Assembly (NCBI GenBank): GCA_017622875.1
Contig: JAGAQG010000041.1
Coordinates: forward strand, 1 to 55,859
Length of the DNA: 55,859 bases
Direction: 5' to 3'
Source: Lachnospiraceae bacterium
GTDB taxonomy: Bacteria > Bacillota > Clostridia > Lachnospirales > Lachnospiraceae
In this document: one piece after another, positions 49,950-55,859 of the stretch
Position numbering within the stretch: the first letter of the stretch is position 1
Layout of the letters: every line of letters begins with the position of its first letter
The notes under the pieces: generated by a model
Told to the model about the DNA's origin: nothing
Databases searched by the model: none
The model's input: only the letters and a program-made list of their open reading frames with translations
Program-made: the position numbers and the translations under genes

Positions 49950-50234
49950 TAGGTAAAAAGATAAAGGCTTTGAACGGAAAAGTACTTTATATGGAAGCTT
50001 CAGAGAGAGACCGTCGCCGGCTGAAAGCGGTTTTAGTGGAAGTGTAAAGGAAGTGCATCCGGGAGCTGATTCGGTGAAGCGTAAGGCGTCTAGCCGGATA
50101 CGATTCGCACTCGTTACGTGCTTCGAGTGAAGGCATTAGCCTTTATTAGAGTGGAACCGCGGATAACTTCGTCTCTAAATAGAATCAATGTGTGCAAAGC
50201 ACATGTTGATTGAGTATAGGGATGAAGTTTTTTT
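49950..50234 (+). ncRNA. T-box leader, cysteine-type
   Basis: The T-box core AGAGTGGAACCGCGG is at 50148-50162, and TGGA in its bulge would pair with an acceptor end with discriminator U, as in tRNA-Cys. A TGC (Cys codon) at 50054-50056 followed by A lies in a plausible specifier loop (GGAAGTGCATCC). Stem I has the AGAGAGAGA purine stretch near 50011. The leader ends in a terminator (AACTTCGTCTCT at 50165-50176 pairs with AGGGATGAAGTT at 50218-50229, then T run). The next gene is cysE. Confidence 0.9.
50165..50234 (+). terminator. T-box-controlled terminator
   Basis: Outer stem 50165-50176 / 50218-50229 with an inner stem (ATCAATGTGTGC / GCACATGTTGAT), then T8. The T-box segment can form the competing antiterminator when uncharged tRNA binds. 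Confidence 0.85.
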
Positions 50235-50269
50235 ATTTTGTGAGTACCACATGTGAGGGGGAGAATATT

Positions 50270-50923
50270 ATGGGATTTGTCAGCCGAATCAAAGAAGAGG
50301 TCAATGTTATATATGAACGTGACCCGGCCATCAAAAGTCCGATGGAGGTTCTTTTGTATCCGAGTTTTCAGGTAATGCTTCGTTACAGAATTGCACATAA
50401 ATTATATTTAAAGAAACATTATTTCCTGGCACGATGGATTTCCCAGAAGGCAGCCAGAAAGACCGGTATCGAAATTCATCCGGGTGCGACCATTGGAAAA
50501 GGTCTTTTTATTGACCATGGTTCAGGGGTGATCATCGGTGAAACAGCGATTATCGGAGACAATGTAACGCTGTATCAGGGCGTGACTCTTGGTGGTACGG
50601 GAAAGGAAACAGGAAAACGTCATCCAACTCTGGAGGACAATGTCATGGTCAGCGCTGGTGCAAAGATATTAGGGTCGTTTACCATTGGGGAAAACTCAAA
50701 AATCGGTGCAGGTTCGGTCGTTTTAAAACCAGTTCCACCAAACTGTACAGTGGTTGGTGTTCCGGGACGTATCGTAAAGAGGGATAACAAAAAGCCCCGC
50801 ATGGATTTAGACCAGGTCAATTTACCTGACCCGGTACTGGATGCAATCATCGAATTGCAGAAGGAAAATCGTGAATTGAAGAAAATTGTAGCAAGATTAC
50901 AAAGGGAGATAGAACATGATTAA
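50270..50923 (+). CDS. cysE: Serine O-acetyltransferase
   Basis: 217 residues, the short form found in Gram-positives. The left-handed beta-helix repeats start at [20 protein letters not shown] and continue with [40 protein letters not shown] and [20 protein letters not shown]. It makes O-acetylserine for cysteine synthesis. The start at 50270 follows GAGGGGGAG. It overlaps cysS by 8 bases. Confidence 0.95.
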
Positions 50924-52325
50924 AATTTATAACACAGAAACAAAGAGAAAAGAAGAATTTGTACCTATCGAAGAAGGCAAAGTAAGAATGTATGTCTGCG
51001 GACCTACTGTTTACAACTTCATTCACATTGGTAACGCAAGACCAATGATCGTATTCGATACAGTACGTCGTTACTTTGAATACAAAGGCTATGACGTGAA
51101 CTTTGTATCAAACTTTACAGACGTGGATGATAAGATCATCAAAAAAGCTATTGAAGAAGGCGTTTCTGCAGATGAAATCTCACAGAGATATATTGCAGAA
51201 TGCAAAAAAGATATGGCAGGCATGAACATTAAACCAGCTACAACTCATCCATTGGCAACTCAGGAAATCGATGGCATGATCGAAATGATCAGTGACCTGA
51301 TCGAGAAAGGTTATGCTTACCCTGTAAACGGAACAGTTTACTTCCGTACAAGAAAATTTGATTCTTACGGAAAATTATCTCATAAAAATCTGGATGATTT
51401 AAGAGCAGGTAACAGAACACTTTTAGTATCCGGGGAAGATGAAAAAGAAGATCCATTGGATTTCGTACTCTGGAAACCGAAAAAAGAAGGCGAACCTGCA
51501 TGGGTATCTCCATGGGGCGAAGGAAGACCAGGCTGGCATATTGAATGCTCAGTGATGTCTAAAAAATATTTAGGCGAACAGATCGATATCCATGGAGGCG
51601 GGGAAGACCTTGTATTCCCACACCATGAAAATGAGATCGCACAGAGTGAAGCTTGCTGCGGAAAAGTATTTACAAGATATTGGATGCACAATGCATTCCT
51701 AAACATTGACAATAAGAAAATGTCTAAATCTTTAGGAAACTTCTTTACAGTACGTGAGATCAGCGAAAAATATGATCTTCAGATTCTTCGTTTCTTCATG
51801 CTTCAGGCACATTACAGAAGTCCATTGAACTTCAGTGCCGAACTGATGGAAGCTTCTAAGAACAGCTTGGATCGTATTGTGACAGCTGCTGAAAACTTAA
51901 AACATTTCATTGGTAACAGTGCAGAAAAAGAAATGACAGCAGAAGAAACAGCTTCTTTAGAAGAAGTAAAAGCATTTGTACAGAAGTTTGAAGAAGCAAT
52001 GGACGATGACTTCAATACAGCAGATGCAATCTCAGCAGTATTTGAACTTGTAAAATATGCAAATACTCATGCATCCGCAGACAATGCAAAATCATATCTT
52101 GAAACATTGAGAAAGACTTTAACAGATCTTTGCGATATTTTAGGTGTGATCGTTGAAAAAGAAGAAGAGCTTCTTGATGCAGATATCGAAAACCTCATTG
52201 CAGAAAGACAGGCTGCAAGAAAAGCGAAAGATTTTGCAAGAGCAGATGAAATTCGTAACGAGCTTCTGGAAAAGGGTATCATTTTAAAAGATACACGTGA
52301 AGGAGTACAATGGAAAAGAGCTTAA
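50916..52325 (+). CDS. cysS: Cysteinyl-tRNA synthetase
   Basis: 469 residues. Zn-site Cys in [20 protein letters not shown] (also the HIGH motif HIGN), later Zn ligands in WHIECSVMS and [11 protein letters not shown], and [14 protein letters not shown] as KMSKS. The C-terminal DALR domain ends [12 protein letters not shown]. It overlaps mrnC at its 3' end. Confidence 0.96.
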
Positions 52326-53487: not shown

Positions 53488-54050
53488 TGAATGATTTGAA
53501 AAATTATAGCGATGAAGAACTGATTCGCCGGCTGCGTGCCGGCGAACAAAATATTGAAGATTATTTGCTGGAAAAGTATAAGCCTTTTGTAAAGAGTCGC
53601 TGTCGTGTGCTGTTTTTGGTAGGCGGTGACAGAGAGGATCTGATTCAGGAGGGAATGATCGGGCTTTTTAAGGCAATCAGAGATTTTGATTTTGAGAATG
53701 GGACTCCATTTGCGGCATTTGCAAAGCTTTGCGTGGAGCGTCAGCTCTACACTGCCATTGAAGCAGCAGGAAGATTAAAAAATGCGCCTTTAAATGGTTA
53801 TATTTCTCTTTCGGAAGAGGCAGAAAATCTGATGGATTCGGGCATTGAAGAGGCTGTTATCGAAAAGACAAGCTTTCAGCAGATATACAGAAAAGCGCAG
53901 GAGCATTTGAGCACGATGGAGAAAATGGTGCTGGATCTGTATTTAGAGGGTAAAGATTATACGGAAATTGCAAAGATTCTTGGAAAACCGGATAAATCCA
54001 TCGATAACGCACTGCAGAGGATTAAGGCGAAGTTTAAAAAGCTGCTTTAA
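53487..54050 (+). CDS. sigH: RNA polymerase sigma factor, SigH-like
   Basis: 187 residues of the sigma-70 family. Region 2 has GGDREDLIQEGMIGLFKAIR and DFDFENGTPFAAFAKLCVER; region 4 is LDLYLEGKDYTEIAKILGKP-DKSIDNALQRIKAKF. The order cysE-cysS-mrnC-rlmB-sigH is the usual clostridial arrangement for the post-exponential/sporulation sigma H. It is the last gene of the T-box operon. Confidence 0.9.
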   Translation: MNDLKNYSDEELIRRLRAGEQNIEDYLLEKYKPFVKSRCRVLFLVGGDREDLIQEGMIGLFKAIRDFDFENGTPFAAFAKLCVERQLYTAIEAAGRLKNAPLNGYISLSEEAENLMDSGIEEAVIEKTSFQQIYRKAQEHLSTMEKMVLDLYLEGKDYTEIAKILGKPDKSIDNALQRIKAKFKKLL

Positions 54051-54093
54051 TGTAGATAGATATTAAAATAATCTAAAAATTGAAAATTTTGGC

Positions 54094-54122
54094 TTGCAAA
54101 AACGTTTGTCTAGTACTATAAT
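54094..54122 (+). promoter_or_regulatory. Promoter of tRNA-Glu
   Basis: -35 TTGCAA (54094-54099), 17-base spacer, consensus -10 TATAAT (54117-54122). Confidence 0.8.
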
Positions 54123-54132
54123 GTGCAAGTAC

Positions 54133-54204
54133 GGTCCGTTGGTCAAGCGGTCAAGACGCCGCCCTCTCACGGCGGAAACACGGGTTCGATTCCCGTACGG
54201 ACTG
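54133..54204 (+). tRNA. tRNA-Glu (anticodon CTC)
   Basis: 72-nt cloverleaf: acceptor GGTCCGT / ACGGACT (first pair G-T), anticodon stem CCGCC / GGCGG with loop CTCTCAC (anticodon CTC), T-arm ACGGG-TTCGATT-CCCGT and discriminator G. CCA is not encoded. It decodes GAG. Confidence 0.95.
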
Positions 54205-54619
54205 CTAAATTCCCGTACGTATCTGTGTGGATATGTTCGGGAGAGTGCAGTATTTCCAAGGTTTTTGGGGATTTTGGTTATCCACATTTTTTTAGAACCA
54301 ATCAAGCTAAAAAAGTAGAACCAATCAAACAACCAATCAGAATTTTATAACGTAAAAGTATTGAGACTATTTGCTATTTGGGTAAGTGGTCTTTTTTTGC
54401 GTGCAAAAAAGGAGAAAAAATGCAGTATAAAGATTTTTTGGAAAATCTTGCTGAGGATCTGCGAGAAGAATTACTATCGGACGAATTACCAGAACGGGAT
54501 TTCCCCCTTTAGTTTATATAACAATACATGCTGGGCATGTCGACAACAGGAGAGGAGTCCCGCCTGTAGAAAATCGGTGAAACTGAATCTCAGTTATCGA
54601 ACTATATTTTTTATGAAAT
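54205..54619. other. Degenerate accessory stretch downstream of tRNA-Glu
   Basis: No intact gene. It opens with a copy of the tRNA 3' portion (ATTCCCGTACG at 54189-54199 and again at 54209-54219). TGTGGATA / TATCCACA arms at 54226 and 54279 followed by T7 could terminate the tRNA transcript. AACCAATCA occurs three times between 54296 and 54340. A 30-codon ORF follows. This looks like the scar of past insertions. Confidence 0.6.
54420..54512 (+). pseudogene. 30-codon gene remnant
   Basis: ATG behind AAAGGAGAAAA, reading MQYKDFLENLAEDLREEL at its start, then a stop after 30 codons. The good ribosome site and this N-terminus resemble the beginnings of Lachnospiraceae DUF5688-type proteins, so it is probably the truncated head of a lost gene. 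Identification is weak. Confidence 0.4.
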
Positions 54620-55306
54620 TTAAGTAGTAGGATATTCTTTTTGGTATAAACGCTTTAAATAATTTTTCCTGAAATCACTTTCTTTACCCCAAAAAGCTAA
54701 TTCATGTTTTGAAAGAATTTTATTATCCATTTTTAAACGAATTAACTCTAGTGTACAAATCAAATCTGCAACTTGGAACAAACGATATTCGGAAGGAAGA
54801 ACCTTTCTGAACTCAACCTCTGGAAGAAGGGCGTTTAACACAGAAGAAAGAATTCGTGTAAGCTCAATCTGTCCGTTATCATAATATACTTTGATGGTAT
54901 CATAGGAAAGAAATTCATCATAATGCTCACGAATAAATGTGGCAAGTTGCTTGGAGAGTTTTCCGGAAGCCTCGACAGTGTCTGCAATATGCTTCTTTTC
55001 GATATGAAAACATTTAAAGGAAATGTTCAGCTGACGAGTAAATGCTACCATTTTATTGAAAATTCTGCGTCGCTCTTTTATATCCATATACTCGTAAGGG
55101 GGTTCTCGACGGATAATAGGACCATTGTGAACACAATGATTTGGTTCAAAGCCAAGCAATGAAAGTTCGTTATTAAATTTATTGATTTCTTCAGAAATAT
55201 CATTTGTCTGATCATGAAAAACCATTGTTATAATGTAATATGGTGAGTGATGATTATATTCACCAAAATCACCACTTTCATCTACGAAAATGCTTAATTC
55301 TTTCAT
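54620..55306 (-). CDS. DUF3800 domain protein
   Basis: 228 residues from the ATG at 55306, set by GGAG (55316-55319) on the minus strand; the longer ORF reads through a terminator. DUF3800 hallmarks are MKELSIFVDESGDFG at the start (Asp10, Asp14), VYYDNGQ in the middle and FQVADLICTLE near the C-terminus. These acidic residues suggest an RNase H-like nuclease fold. DUF3800 genes are often found in defence islands and with upstream structured RNAs (DUF3800 RNA motifs, recalled). Here a promoter, a compact RNA and a terminator precede it. Confidence 0.88.
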   Translation of the reverse strand: MKELSIFVDESGDFGEYNHHSPYYIITMVFHDQTNDISEEINKFNNELSLLGFEPNHCVHNGPIIRREPPYEYMDIKERRRIFNKMVAFTRQLNISFKCFHIEKKHIADTVEASGKLSKQLATFIREHYDEFLSYDTIKVYYDNGQIELTRILSSVLNALLPEVEFRKVLPSEYRLFQVADLICTLELIRLKMDNKILSKHELAFWGKESDFRKNYLKRLYQKEYPTT

Positions 55307-55319
55307 ATGTAAAATCTCC

Positions 55320-55404
55320 AAAAAAAGTGGCAGGGAACTTCCCTGCCGATAGATGGACCAGGGTCTTTCGACCAGCCCTAACAGCAATATTGCTGATTTA
55401 TTAT
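55320..55404 (-). ncRNA. Structured leader/small RNA upstream of DUF3800 with intrinsic terminator
   Basis: On the minus strand from about 55404: a CAGCAATATTGCTG palindrome (55382-55395), GGTC-GAAA-GACC hairpin (55362-55373) within CTGGTC direct repeats, then a GC-rich stem (GGCAGGGAA / TTCCCTGCC, 55329-55347) and T7 (55320-55326). The ribosome site of DUF3800 begins right after the T run. Hence most transcripts should end as an RNA of about 80-85 nt, and only read-through makes protein. It fits the class of DUF3800-associated RNA motifs; which subtype I cannot say. Confidence 0.7.
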
Positions 55405-55410
55405 ATGTTT

Positions 55411-55439
55411 ATTATATAGGAAATATTCTGGATAGTCAA
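55411..55439 (-). promoter_or_regulatory. Strong promoter of the DUF3800 RNA/gene
   Basis: Minus strand -35 TTGACT (55434-55439), 17-base spacer, consensus -10 TATAAT (55411-55416). Confidence 0.8.
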
Positions 55440-55556
55440 ATGAAATATATGAGCAGGATAGAGGTAAAGAAGGAATTACGTTGGCTGCAATTTTACTGTT
55501 TGGTAAAGATAATGCAAAGAGAAAGTCAAGCCCTAGGAATATATGATAGTTTTTAG
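55440..55556 (+). CDS. Possible 38-residue ORF, unknown
   Basis: ATG at 55440 reading MKYMSRIEVKKELRWLQFYC in its first half, stop at 55556. There is no good ribosome site (CTGGATAG). The strand is opposite to DUF3800 and the start abuts its -35. A hairpin follows. It may be spurious or a remnant; I recognise no family. Confidence 0.25.
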   Translation: MKYMSRIEVKKELRWLQFYCLVKIMQRESQALGIYDSF

Positions 55557-55583
55557 CAGGACAGGCGTTTTCGTCTGCCCTGT
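55557..55583 (+). terminator. Hairpin after the 38-residue ORF
   Basis: CAGGCG-TTTT-CGTCTG with an outer GCAGG / CCTGT extension (one mismatch), followed by GTTTATGC rather than a clean T run. Weak terminator candidate. Confidence 0.4.
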
Positions 55584-55773
55584 GTTTATGCTATTTTCCA
55601 TCTTTCCCCATATATCATTTTTGAAAAAATCATTATAATGAATTTGAAACGTAAAATTTTGGAATATTTCGTAAATTTGTCGGATTTTGCATATTTTACA
55701 TTTTTTATATAATAAAGAAGCTTCCTGTATAATTCAAATATAAGGAATTCCGAGAAAGAAGGTTGAGAAAAAA
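55584..55773. other. AT-rich upstream region of the window-end gene
   Basis: No ORF. Contains TATAAT-like elements at about 55706 and 55733 without a clear partner -35, the latter inside an imperfect CCTGTATA / TATAAGG dyad. Probably promoter DNA for the gene starting at 55850. Confidence 0.4.
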
Positions 55774-55844
55774 ATACCTCAGTGTAGAATAAGATTACTG
55801 ACTTTGGAACGGTTAGTAAAAAATCTTATTGAACAGAGAGGTAT
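55774..55844 (+). promoter_or_regulatory. Long leader hairpin burying a ribosome site
   Basis: Three stacked stems: ATACCTC (55774) / GAGGTAT (55838), AATAAGATT (55788) / AATCTTATT (55822), ACTGAC (55797) / GTTAGT (55812), terminal loop TTTGGAACG. The basal stem includes the ribosome site AGAGAGG (55835-55841) of the gene at 55850, so folding would block translation. It matches no class I recognise. Confidence 0.6.
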
Positions 55845-55849
55845 CTGAA

Positions 55850-55859
55850 ATGAAGTATA
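55850..55859 (+). CDS. Start of a gene cut by the window end
   Basis: ATG at 55850, 8 bases after AGAGAGG, reading MKY before the window ends. Identity cannot be told. Confidence 0.45.

Follow-up and report, generated by a model that had tools for sequence, protein, structure and literature searches.

Type III toxin–antitoxin loci of the ToxIN kind consist of a promoter, a structured RNA, a terminator and a nuclease gene, and the type III antitoxin RNA, ToxI, is built of tandem repeats. RNA motifs linked to the protein family DUF3800 were reportedly described by Weinberg et al. in 2017, and to our knowledge RNA counter-defence by phages is known only for ToxIN and for CRISPR mimics. Here, a DUF3800 gene with a structured RNA directly upstream was analysed on a contig of a Lachnospiraceae bacterium (JAGAQG010000041.1, assembly GCA_017622875.1), whose complete stretch of 55,859 nucleotides (nt) is referred to as the window, together with its relatives in bacterial genomes and virus records. 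With slightly less than balanced confidence, it is proposed that DUF3800 proteins of this type may be RNase HII-like toxins restrained by RNA, and that large unnamed phages may gain and lose solitary DUF3800-XI RNAs as antidotes, in tRNA islands and at a site preceding the terminase gene.

Both the RNA family and the protein family are already known. Rfam holds several DUF3800-linked RNA families (DUF3800-I, IX and XI among them), and a limited literature search, covering parts of the papers concerned, found no function assigned to such RNAs and no published solitary phage DUF3800 RNAs or tRNA-array setting for them. According to the accessible portions of the respective papers, phage PhiTE escapes ToxIN with a pseudo-ToxI RNA (PMC3475682), the toxic AbiF protein of Clostridioides difficile is bound and neutralised by the RCd22 RNA (PMC12373285), and solitary CRISPR-repeat mimics, the Racrs, occur in viral genomes (PMC10651486); a DUF3800 protein of the plantazolicin cluster has been suggested to play an immunity role (PMC7617318), and another DUF3800 gene is listed with a TIR protein and a reverse transcriptase as its neighbours (PMC6722718). 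Judged by the same portions, the present locus resembles ToxIN and pseudo-ToxI in its module layout and in the occurrence of phage RNA-motif copies without the toxin, but it has no tandem repeats, its predicted RNase H-like protein has DUF3800 as its only Pfam family, and inhibition is a proposal. As in AbiF/RCd22, a protein is linked to a non-coding RNA in which motifs are conserved, although AbiF belongs to Abi_2 and has links to Cas13 ancestors, whereas the DUF3800 protein has an RNase HII-like fold and is known from sequence alone. Like the Racrs, it includes a lone element of defence-RNA type in viral genomes, but a Racr mimics a CRISPR repeat, whereas this RNA is linked to DUF3800 and its inhibitory action is presumed.

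Anatomy of the locus and predicted fold of the protein

On the minus strand, positions 55439 to 54620 carry, in this order, a promoter, a small RNA, a terminator, a ribosome binding site and the DUF3800 gene (Table 1), and this RNA–protein layout is more than chance. The earlier note had described a promoter–RNA–terminator–DUF3800 arrangement with two or three hairpins; such an arrangement is seen, with a near-consensus promoter, three hairpins and a T7 tract, and the supposed link to the DUF3800 RNA motifs is borne out by an Rfam covariance search, in which RF02975 (DUF3800-XI) matched 55332-55379(-) at 56.1 bits, against a gathering score of 37.8. The promoter (TTGACT-17-TATAAT, 55439..55411) has 11 of 12 consensus matches, and transcription probably starts near 55404. 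The fold of the 84 nt 55405-55322 (-33 kcal/mol, z = -4.25) was equalled by 0 of 200 shuffles. The RNA core starts 72 nt before the ATG of the gene, at 55306, and the reading frame carries the motif VDESGD; a start at 55387 was rejected as merely that of the longest frame, since 55306 sits behind the ribosome site. The whole genome contains one RF02975 match and one match to PF12686 (DUF3800). As read from the letters, a type III-like order of structured RNA, terminator and putative nuclease gene behind one promoter appears to be present. The likeness to type III systems drawn in the earlier note holds for the layout, but a single core copy lies upstream of the gene, with no tandem repeats as in ToxI, and the protein has no Pfam family but DUF3800 and no PADLOC match.

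Table 1. Features of the RNA–DUF3800 locus in the window.
Feature	Position	Strand	Basis or remark
-35 box TTGACT	55434..55439	-	promoter match
-10 box TATAAT	55411..55416	-	17-nt spacer from -35 box
5' hairpin CAGCA-ATAT-TGCTG of the RNA	55382..55395	-	sequence and fold
DUF3800-XI RNA core	55332..55379	-	Rfam RF02975 match
Hairpin 1 within the RNA core	55354-55379	-	helix re-pairing in diverged copies
Hairpin 2, a covarying helix here doubling as intrinsic terminator stem	55329..55347	-	covariation; 8 bp, 6 of them G-C
T7 tract of the terminator	55320..55326	-	read from sequence
Ribosome binding site GGAG	55316..55319	-	read from sequence
DUF3800 gene, 228 amino acids, RNase H-like fold predicted	54620..55306	-	Pfam and model

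The protein scored 46.9 bits with PF12686 (curated cut-off 21), and Pfam at E up to 1 gave no further family, and so no Abi_2 (PF07751), while NCBIfam and PADLOC gave no match. For relatives of ToxN, CptN and TenpN, this means DUF3800 alone in Pfam and nothing in NCBIfam and PADLOC, the coverage of all three families there being unchecked. PHROGs yielded a single match at E 0.12, a sequence search of solved structures six (best E 0.34), a further search none at E up to 1, and protein searches of phages and of plasmids one record each. Residues D9, E10, D13, E68, D143 and D181 are invariant in 45 relatives, and the predicted structure, in agreement with the RNase H-like site that had been foreseen, has an RNase H-like fold with conserved acidic residues, Argonaute/PIWI being among its structural matches. 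With RNase HII it shares the fold, a D-E at the end of strand 1, a D after a later strand and a D in the following helix, an order that we take to correspond to the RNase HII site, although identity is 10%, no second Pfam match appears and a dedicated RNA is present here. The model is thus that of an RNase HII-like nuclease, whose D9-E10-D143-D181 probably form a metal site.

Structure and covariation of the RNA

Covariation was assessed in 67 RNAs coupled to a DUF3800 gene (alignment A3, 67 of 70 listed coupled references; L102, L130 and L135 were dropped for odd hairpin-2 limits) and in 39 RNAs with no DUF3800 gene found downstream (A4, 39 of 50 listed references; L026, L030, L034, L039, L065, L079, L084, L085, L101, L108 and L138 were dropped and L091 and L144 trimmed, and L036, L073 and L100, whose stretches are too short to judge, are not proven solitary). 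In A3, both sides of hairpin 2 changed in 7 of 8 pairs, and the whole-structure score was 0.183 against a shuffled mean of 0.087; in A4 the corresponding values were 0.211 and 0.098, with 0 of 500 shuffles as high in either set, and 4 of 500 shuffles of A4 had at least as many pairs in which both sides differ. These shuffles ignore relatedness, and slid controls, which keep it, stay at or below 0.080. The earlier note had tied its case for the RNA to covariation among homologous leaders, and the leaders do covary.

Hairpin 1 is nearly invariant in A3 and A4 because the search pattern fixed it. Among 24 diverged copies, its upper stem reads GGUC/GACC, GGAC/GUCC, GGUA/UACC, GGCU/AGCC, GAGC/GCUC or GGUGUA/UACACC, and its lower stem UGAUCU/GGAUCA in one diverged copy beside a broken gene, so that compensating changes restore helix 1 in diverged copies from both bacteria and phages; in L355, only 4 of the 6 lower positions pair. 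Pairing in helix 1 was counted by script, since gaps are badly placed in a few rows of A7; in the script count the row of L012 is misfitted. Several phage copies keep hairpin 2 by compensation although the T tract is gone, which indicates that hairpin 2 belongs to the RNA and is more than a terminator. Letters are also conserved outside the covarying pairs, and the core hairpin, with a 2-nt 3' bulge, is followed by a conserved linker before the terminator hairpin. The locus agrees with RF02975 in core sequence, in hairpin 1, in its position before a DUF3800 gene and in a score above the cut-off; it differs in that hairpin 2 covaries, a 5' hairpin is common and solitary virus copies exist, whereas the Rfam alignment and match pair hairpin 1 alone. 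In the coupled loci L067, L082, L109 and L119, the sequence ATTGGCGGGT... comes after hairpin 2 and seems to form an additional stem ahead of the gene.

One-sided dependence of the protein on the RNA

A class sample of 391 genomes was searched with RF02975 and with a protein profile (A5), which gave RNA matches in 12 genomes (16 copies, one under the Rfam cut-off) and protein matches in 16. All six DUF3800 matches of at least 250 bits, one of them with an internal stop codon, have the RNA directly upstream, while 8 of the 16 RNAs adjoin a DUF3800 gene and 8 do not. Broken genes retain diverged or low-scoring RNAs in the second locus of G241 (27.3 bits), in G077 (21.9) and in G223 (36.8, slightly under the Rfam cut-off), where the upstream sequences fold into similar hairpins, and a full-scoring RNA in G367. 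No RNA was found at the distant or fragmentary DUF3800 matches of G094, G353, G247, G245, G037, G331 and G268 (upstream sequence was read directly for the first four), and its absence from G094, G353 and G247 limits the RNA rule to the near clade. Judged from such occurrences, this asymmetry would be the pattern expected of a toxin and its antitoxin.

A pattern scan of public genomes returned at least 119 stretches, and two viral scans 20 distinct records. Among the matches listed, the genomes held 121 pattern copies, a tally that omits L002 (a second copy of the window) and the class loci without the exact core (L006, L007, L011, L012, L013, L016 and L017). Of these, 106 could be judged, since 11 bacterial loci were of insufficient length and 4 ran off a contig end: the DUF3800 gene was intact in 58, broken or partial in 17 and not found in 31. 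In the 65 intact loci of all sets, the core starts 58-179 nt, mostly 66-108 nt, before the protein. The hosts among the matches listed (80 of at least 119) are Lachnospiraceae, Treponema, Fibrobacter, Propionibacteriaceae, Alphaproteobacteria and Parasutterella, and so scattered a distribution suggests horizontal transfer.

Two of the 31 solitary bacterial RNAs are second copies adjoining a coupled one, on opposite strands in L034 and on the same strand, with the DUF3800 gene between, in L132. RNAs without a DUF3800 gene found downstream have common downstream sequence in L036 and L144, and likewise in L077, L084 and L141, as if the solitary RNA stood in a conserved cassette. The 103 neighbouring open reading frames (ORFs) of bacterial solitary copies (set A6, 103 of 106 listed, ORFs above 700 amino acids being skipped) matched AAA_21 four times, integrase three times and Abi_2 once in Pfam and PHROG, a mixed setting with no clear prophage signal.

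Solitary RNAs in virus records

All 20 virus records of the first set scored above the Rfam cut-off; PF12686 was found in 5 of them (in one under the Pfam cut-off, at a contig end), and one further record had a partial DUF3800 by our own profile. Swapping a single stem pair in the search pattern, as a control, left 0 matches where the original had 19. R1, a covariance model made exclusively from coupled RNAs, found more copies among relatives of phage terminases and in a broad gapped-pattern viral scan, which among the matches listed brought mostly chance; 14 of 15 further viral records lacked PF12686, and whole-record searches with R1 found one copy in each of 16 records. Altogether, 28 of 35 RNA-bearing virus records, in 12 flank clusters, are without PF12686, and the 7 coupled ones form one cluster (L281, L285 and L324 repeat records already counted). 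These set sizes are biased, as the terminase search added solitary records, and the pattern-found set alone gives 14 of 20 solitary; the records may be fragments, and five solitary ones span 138-170 kb. As for a pseudo-ToxI-like mimic, phage RNA copies without a toxin gene are present, phage genes having been tested at the terminase site only.

One setting is the tRNA array, where copies were found in L019 (12 tRNAs) and L027 (20), which form one cluster, in L150 (2), in L276 (8) and L339 (9), again one cluster, and in L293 (22). Counted by cluster, 5 of the 12 solitary groups (7 of 28 records) have a tRNA no more than 600 nt away, compared with 1 of 97 loci among the chance matches listed (Fisher p = 3.8e-5); L291, which has a single tRNA, makes up the fifth of these clusters, and in L274 the tRNAs are ~1.6 kb away. 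ROOL RNA is also present in L276 and L293; according to the accessible part of one paper, phages and prophages carry ROOL RNA, frequently close to tRNA islands (PMC12286853). In the tRNA array of L276, a drum RNA (RF02958, 2988-3134, minus strand) abuts the DUF3800-XI-type RNA.

The other setting is flanked by an exonuclease gene (phrog_284) on one side and, on the other, by genes that run up to the terminase. It recurs in three phage groups; proteins of this site share 21-35% identity from one group to another, and the neighbours tested include terminase, exonuclease or PhoH genes. RNA was found in 15 of 80 terminase loci. It is present in L200 and the site is empty in L184, with terminases 90.8% identical; it is present in L196 (weak score), L153 and L208 and not found in L211, with terminases 90-93% identical; and the same gap holds tRNA genes in the relatives L218, L230 and L228 (the last without a clear anticodon). 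Gain or loss among close relatives at one site marks the RNA as optional cargo. Between L021 and L153 the terminases are 77% and the exonucleases upstream of the RNA 24% identical, a contrast that suggests recombination at the RNA site, and a group I intron match in L153 (5113-5430, plus strand) overlaps the end of the terminase frame.

A promoter, counted where at least 10 of 12 positions matched in the 100 nt before the core, was found in 60.7% of 84 distinct coupled loci (3.6% of shuffles), so that the promoter noticed ahead of the RNA in the window is a conserved one; its -10 box ends 24-38 nt before the core in 41 of 51 promoter-bearing coupled loci. The values were 28.6% for 35 bacterial solitary copies (3.1% shuffled) and 10% for 20 copies run as phage solitary (2.2% shuffled). 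A 5' hairpin of at least 6 bp was present in 62% of coupled, 43% of bacterial solitary and 5% of phage solitary copies, against 18%, 17% and 11% of shuffles. It follows that phage copies keep the core and mostly not the host promoter, and phage RNAs within tRNA arrays may be released by cleavage of long transcripts.

Neighbourhood of the locus in the window

The earlier note had also seen in the adjacent tRNA and decayed DNA a setting typical of defence or mobile cargo. The tRNA is there (tRNA-Glu, 54133-54205), but it is a plain neighbour and the setting is weak: 54050-55859 contains no direct repeat of at least 14 nt, and a tRNA-integrated island was rejected on this ground. Beside the end of the DUF3800 gene, a short plus-strand frame (54420-54512, MQYKDFLENLAEDLRE...) behind a ribosome-site-like stretch ends after ~30 codons and resembles, by eye, the head of a decayed gene. 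Farther away, a T-box leader (49961-50179, plus strand, 117 bits) precedes the frames 50210-50923 and 50916-52325, which by eye resemble cysE and cysS.

Discussion

The locus is read here, at a probability of about 0.5, as a type III-like pair of RNA antitoxin and RNase toxin, with phage copies acting as decoy antitoxins in the manner of pseudo-ToxI; it is not a proven member of any toxin–antitoxin type. That the RNA restrains a nuclease becomes more likely in view of the one-sided association and of the phage copies that stand alone. By analogy with the described systems, the strong promoter would make the ~80-nt RNA in excess and occasional read-through of the terminator would yield the DUF3800 mRNA; the RNA would bind and hold the nuclease, as in type III pairs and AbiF/RCd22. 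Phage takeover would then halt synthesis of the RNA or destroy it, and the freed nuclease would stop the infection, unless solitary core RNAs of the phage kept it bound as decoy antitoxins, as proposed from PhiTE pseudo-ToxI.

Several observations weigh against this reading. Toxicity, binding, phage inhibition and decoy action are argued by analogy, and PADLOC is silent on the protein. Solitary RNAs occupy 31 of the 106 judged bacterial loci, and gene remnants were seen by eye at L030, L081, L099 and L137, so that gene loss alone accounts for part of the asymmetry. Among 55 terminase loci with both site genes, the RNA was found in 15 and none was detected in 40, and a close promoter remains in 1 of 19 phage solitary copies once the coupled L341 is removed. 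Three of the 12 solitary clusters (L018, L026 and L152) lie outside a secure phage setting, and the scores of L196, L252, L274 and L291 are weak. A blastn search with the 48-nt core, an insensitive query, found none in 50,697 named phage records (in plasmids it gave one 25-nt match, E 0.8, which was disregarded), and one terminase locus and one tRNA-array locus had no match to named phages, so that any encounter of these phages with the module is presumed. Finally, phage and host cores resemble each other so closely in sequence that a host partner common to both could be argued for just as easily.

Another explanation, which we consider unlikely, is that the RNA has a task of its own in both phages and bacteria, for instance binding a host RNase or ribosomal factor, and that DUF3800 was recruited to it and may serve as its processing enzyme or as a guard. 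In favour of this are the solitary copies found in tRNA arrays (ROOL RNA accompanies two, and a drum RNA adjoins one), the near-identical core in hosts and phages and the share of solitary bacterial RNAs given above, but the coming and going of the RNA among phages whose terminases are 90-93% identical favours dispensable cargo, and both the RNA directly upstream of each of the six close DUF3800 relatives from the class genomes and the narrow core–gene spacing of intact loci tell against it. Slightly less likely still is that the RNA is a cofactor activating or guiding the DUF3800 nuclease, its solitary copies being remnants or competitors. RNase H-fold nucleases with an RNA partner do exist, as the Argonaute/PIWI matches recall, and the conservation outside covarying pairs would fit; according to the accessible part of one paper, DUF3800 proteins also accompany Cas12 systems (PMC10910872). 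The core, however, ends at the covarying hairpin and is mostly paired or conserved, with no variable guide-like stretch, for which reason a guide RNA was rejected, and phage copies without the protein would be useful only as competitors, which comes close to the decoy antitoxin itself.

A merely cis-acting leader or attenuator, setting DUF3800 expression by termination, would account for a terminator directly before the ribosome site and for a core-to-start spacing of 58-179, mostly 66-108 nt, and yet it is improbable, as many copies have no DUF3800 gene downstream and hairpin 2 is compensated in several phage copies despite the lost T tract; a leader acting in cis only was rejected because the RNA so often lacks a following gene. 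Least credible of all is that bacterial DNA wrongly called viral, or matches by chance, explain the solitary phage copies: IMG/VR assigns its virus calls automatically, most of the listed matches to the broad gapped pattern arose by chance and L026 adjoins genes that look bacterial by eye, but every one of the 20 first records scores above the Rfam cut-off with the control pattern at 0, terminase, exonuclease or PhoH genes are among the neighbours in the three terminase-site groups tested, and relatives hold tRNA genes at the same site. Where the copies are linked to a terminase, these data already weigh against such an error.

If the phage-type RNA silences the DUF3800 protein, phage tRNA islands hold RNA antidotes besides tRNAs. 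The type III-like reading, if true, would reveal a hidden class of RNA counter-defence, and solitary phage copies of other orphan RNA motifs would point to more hidden defence systems.
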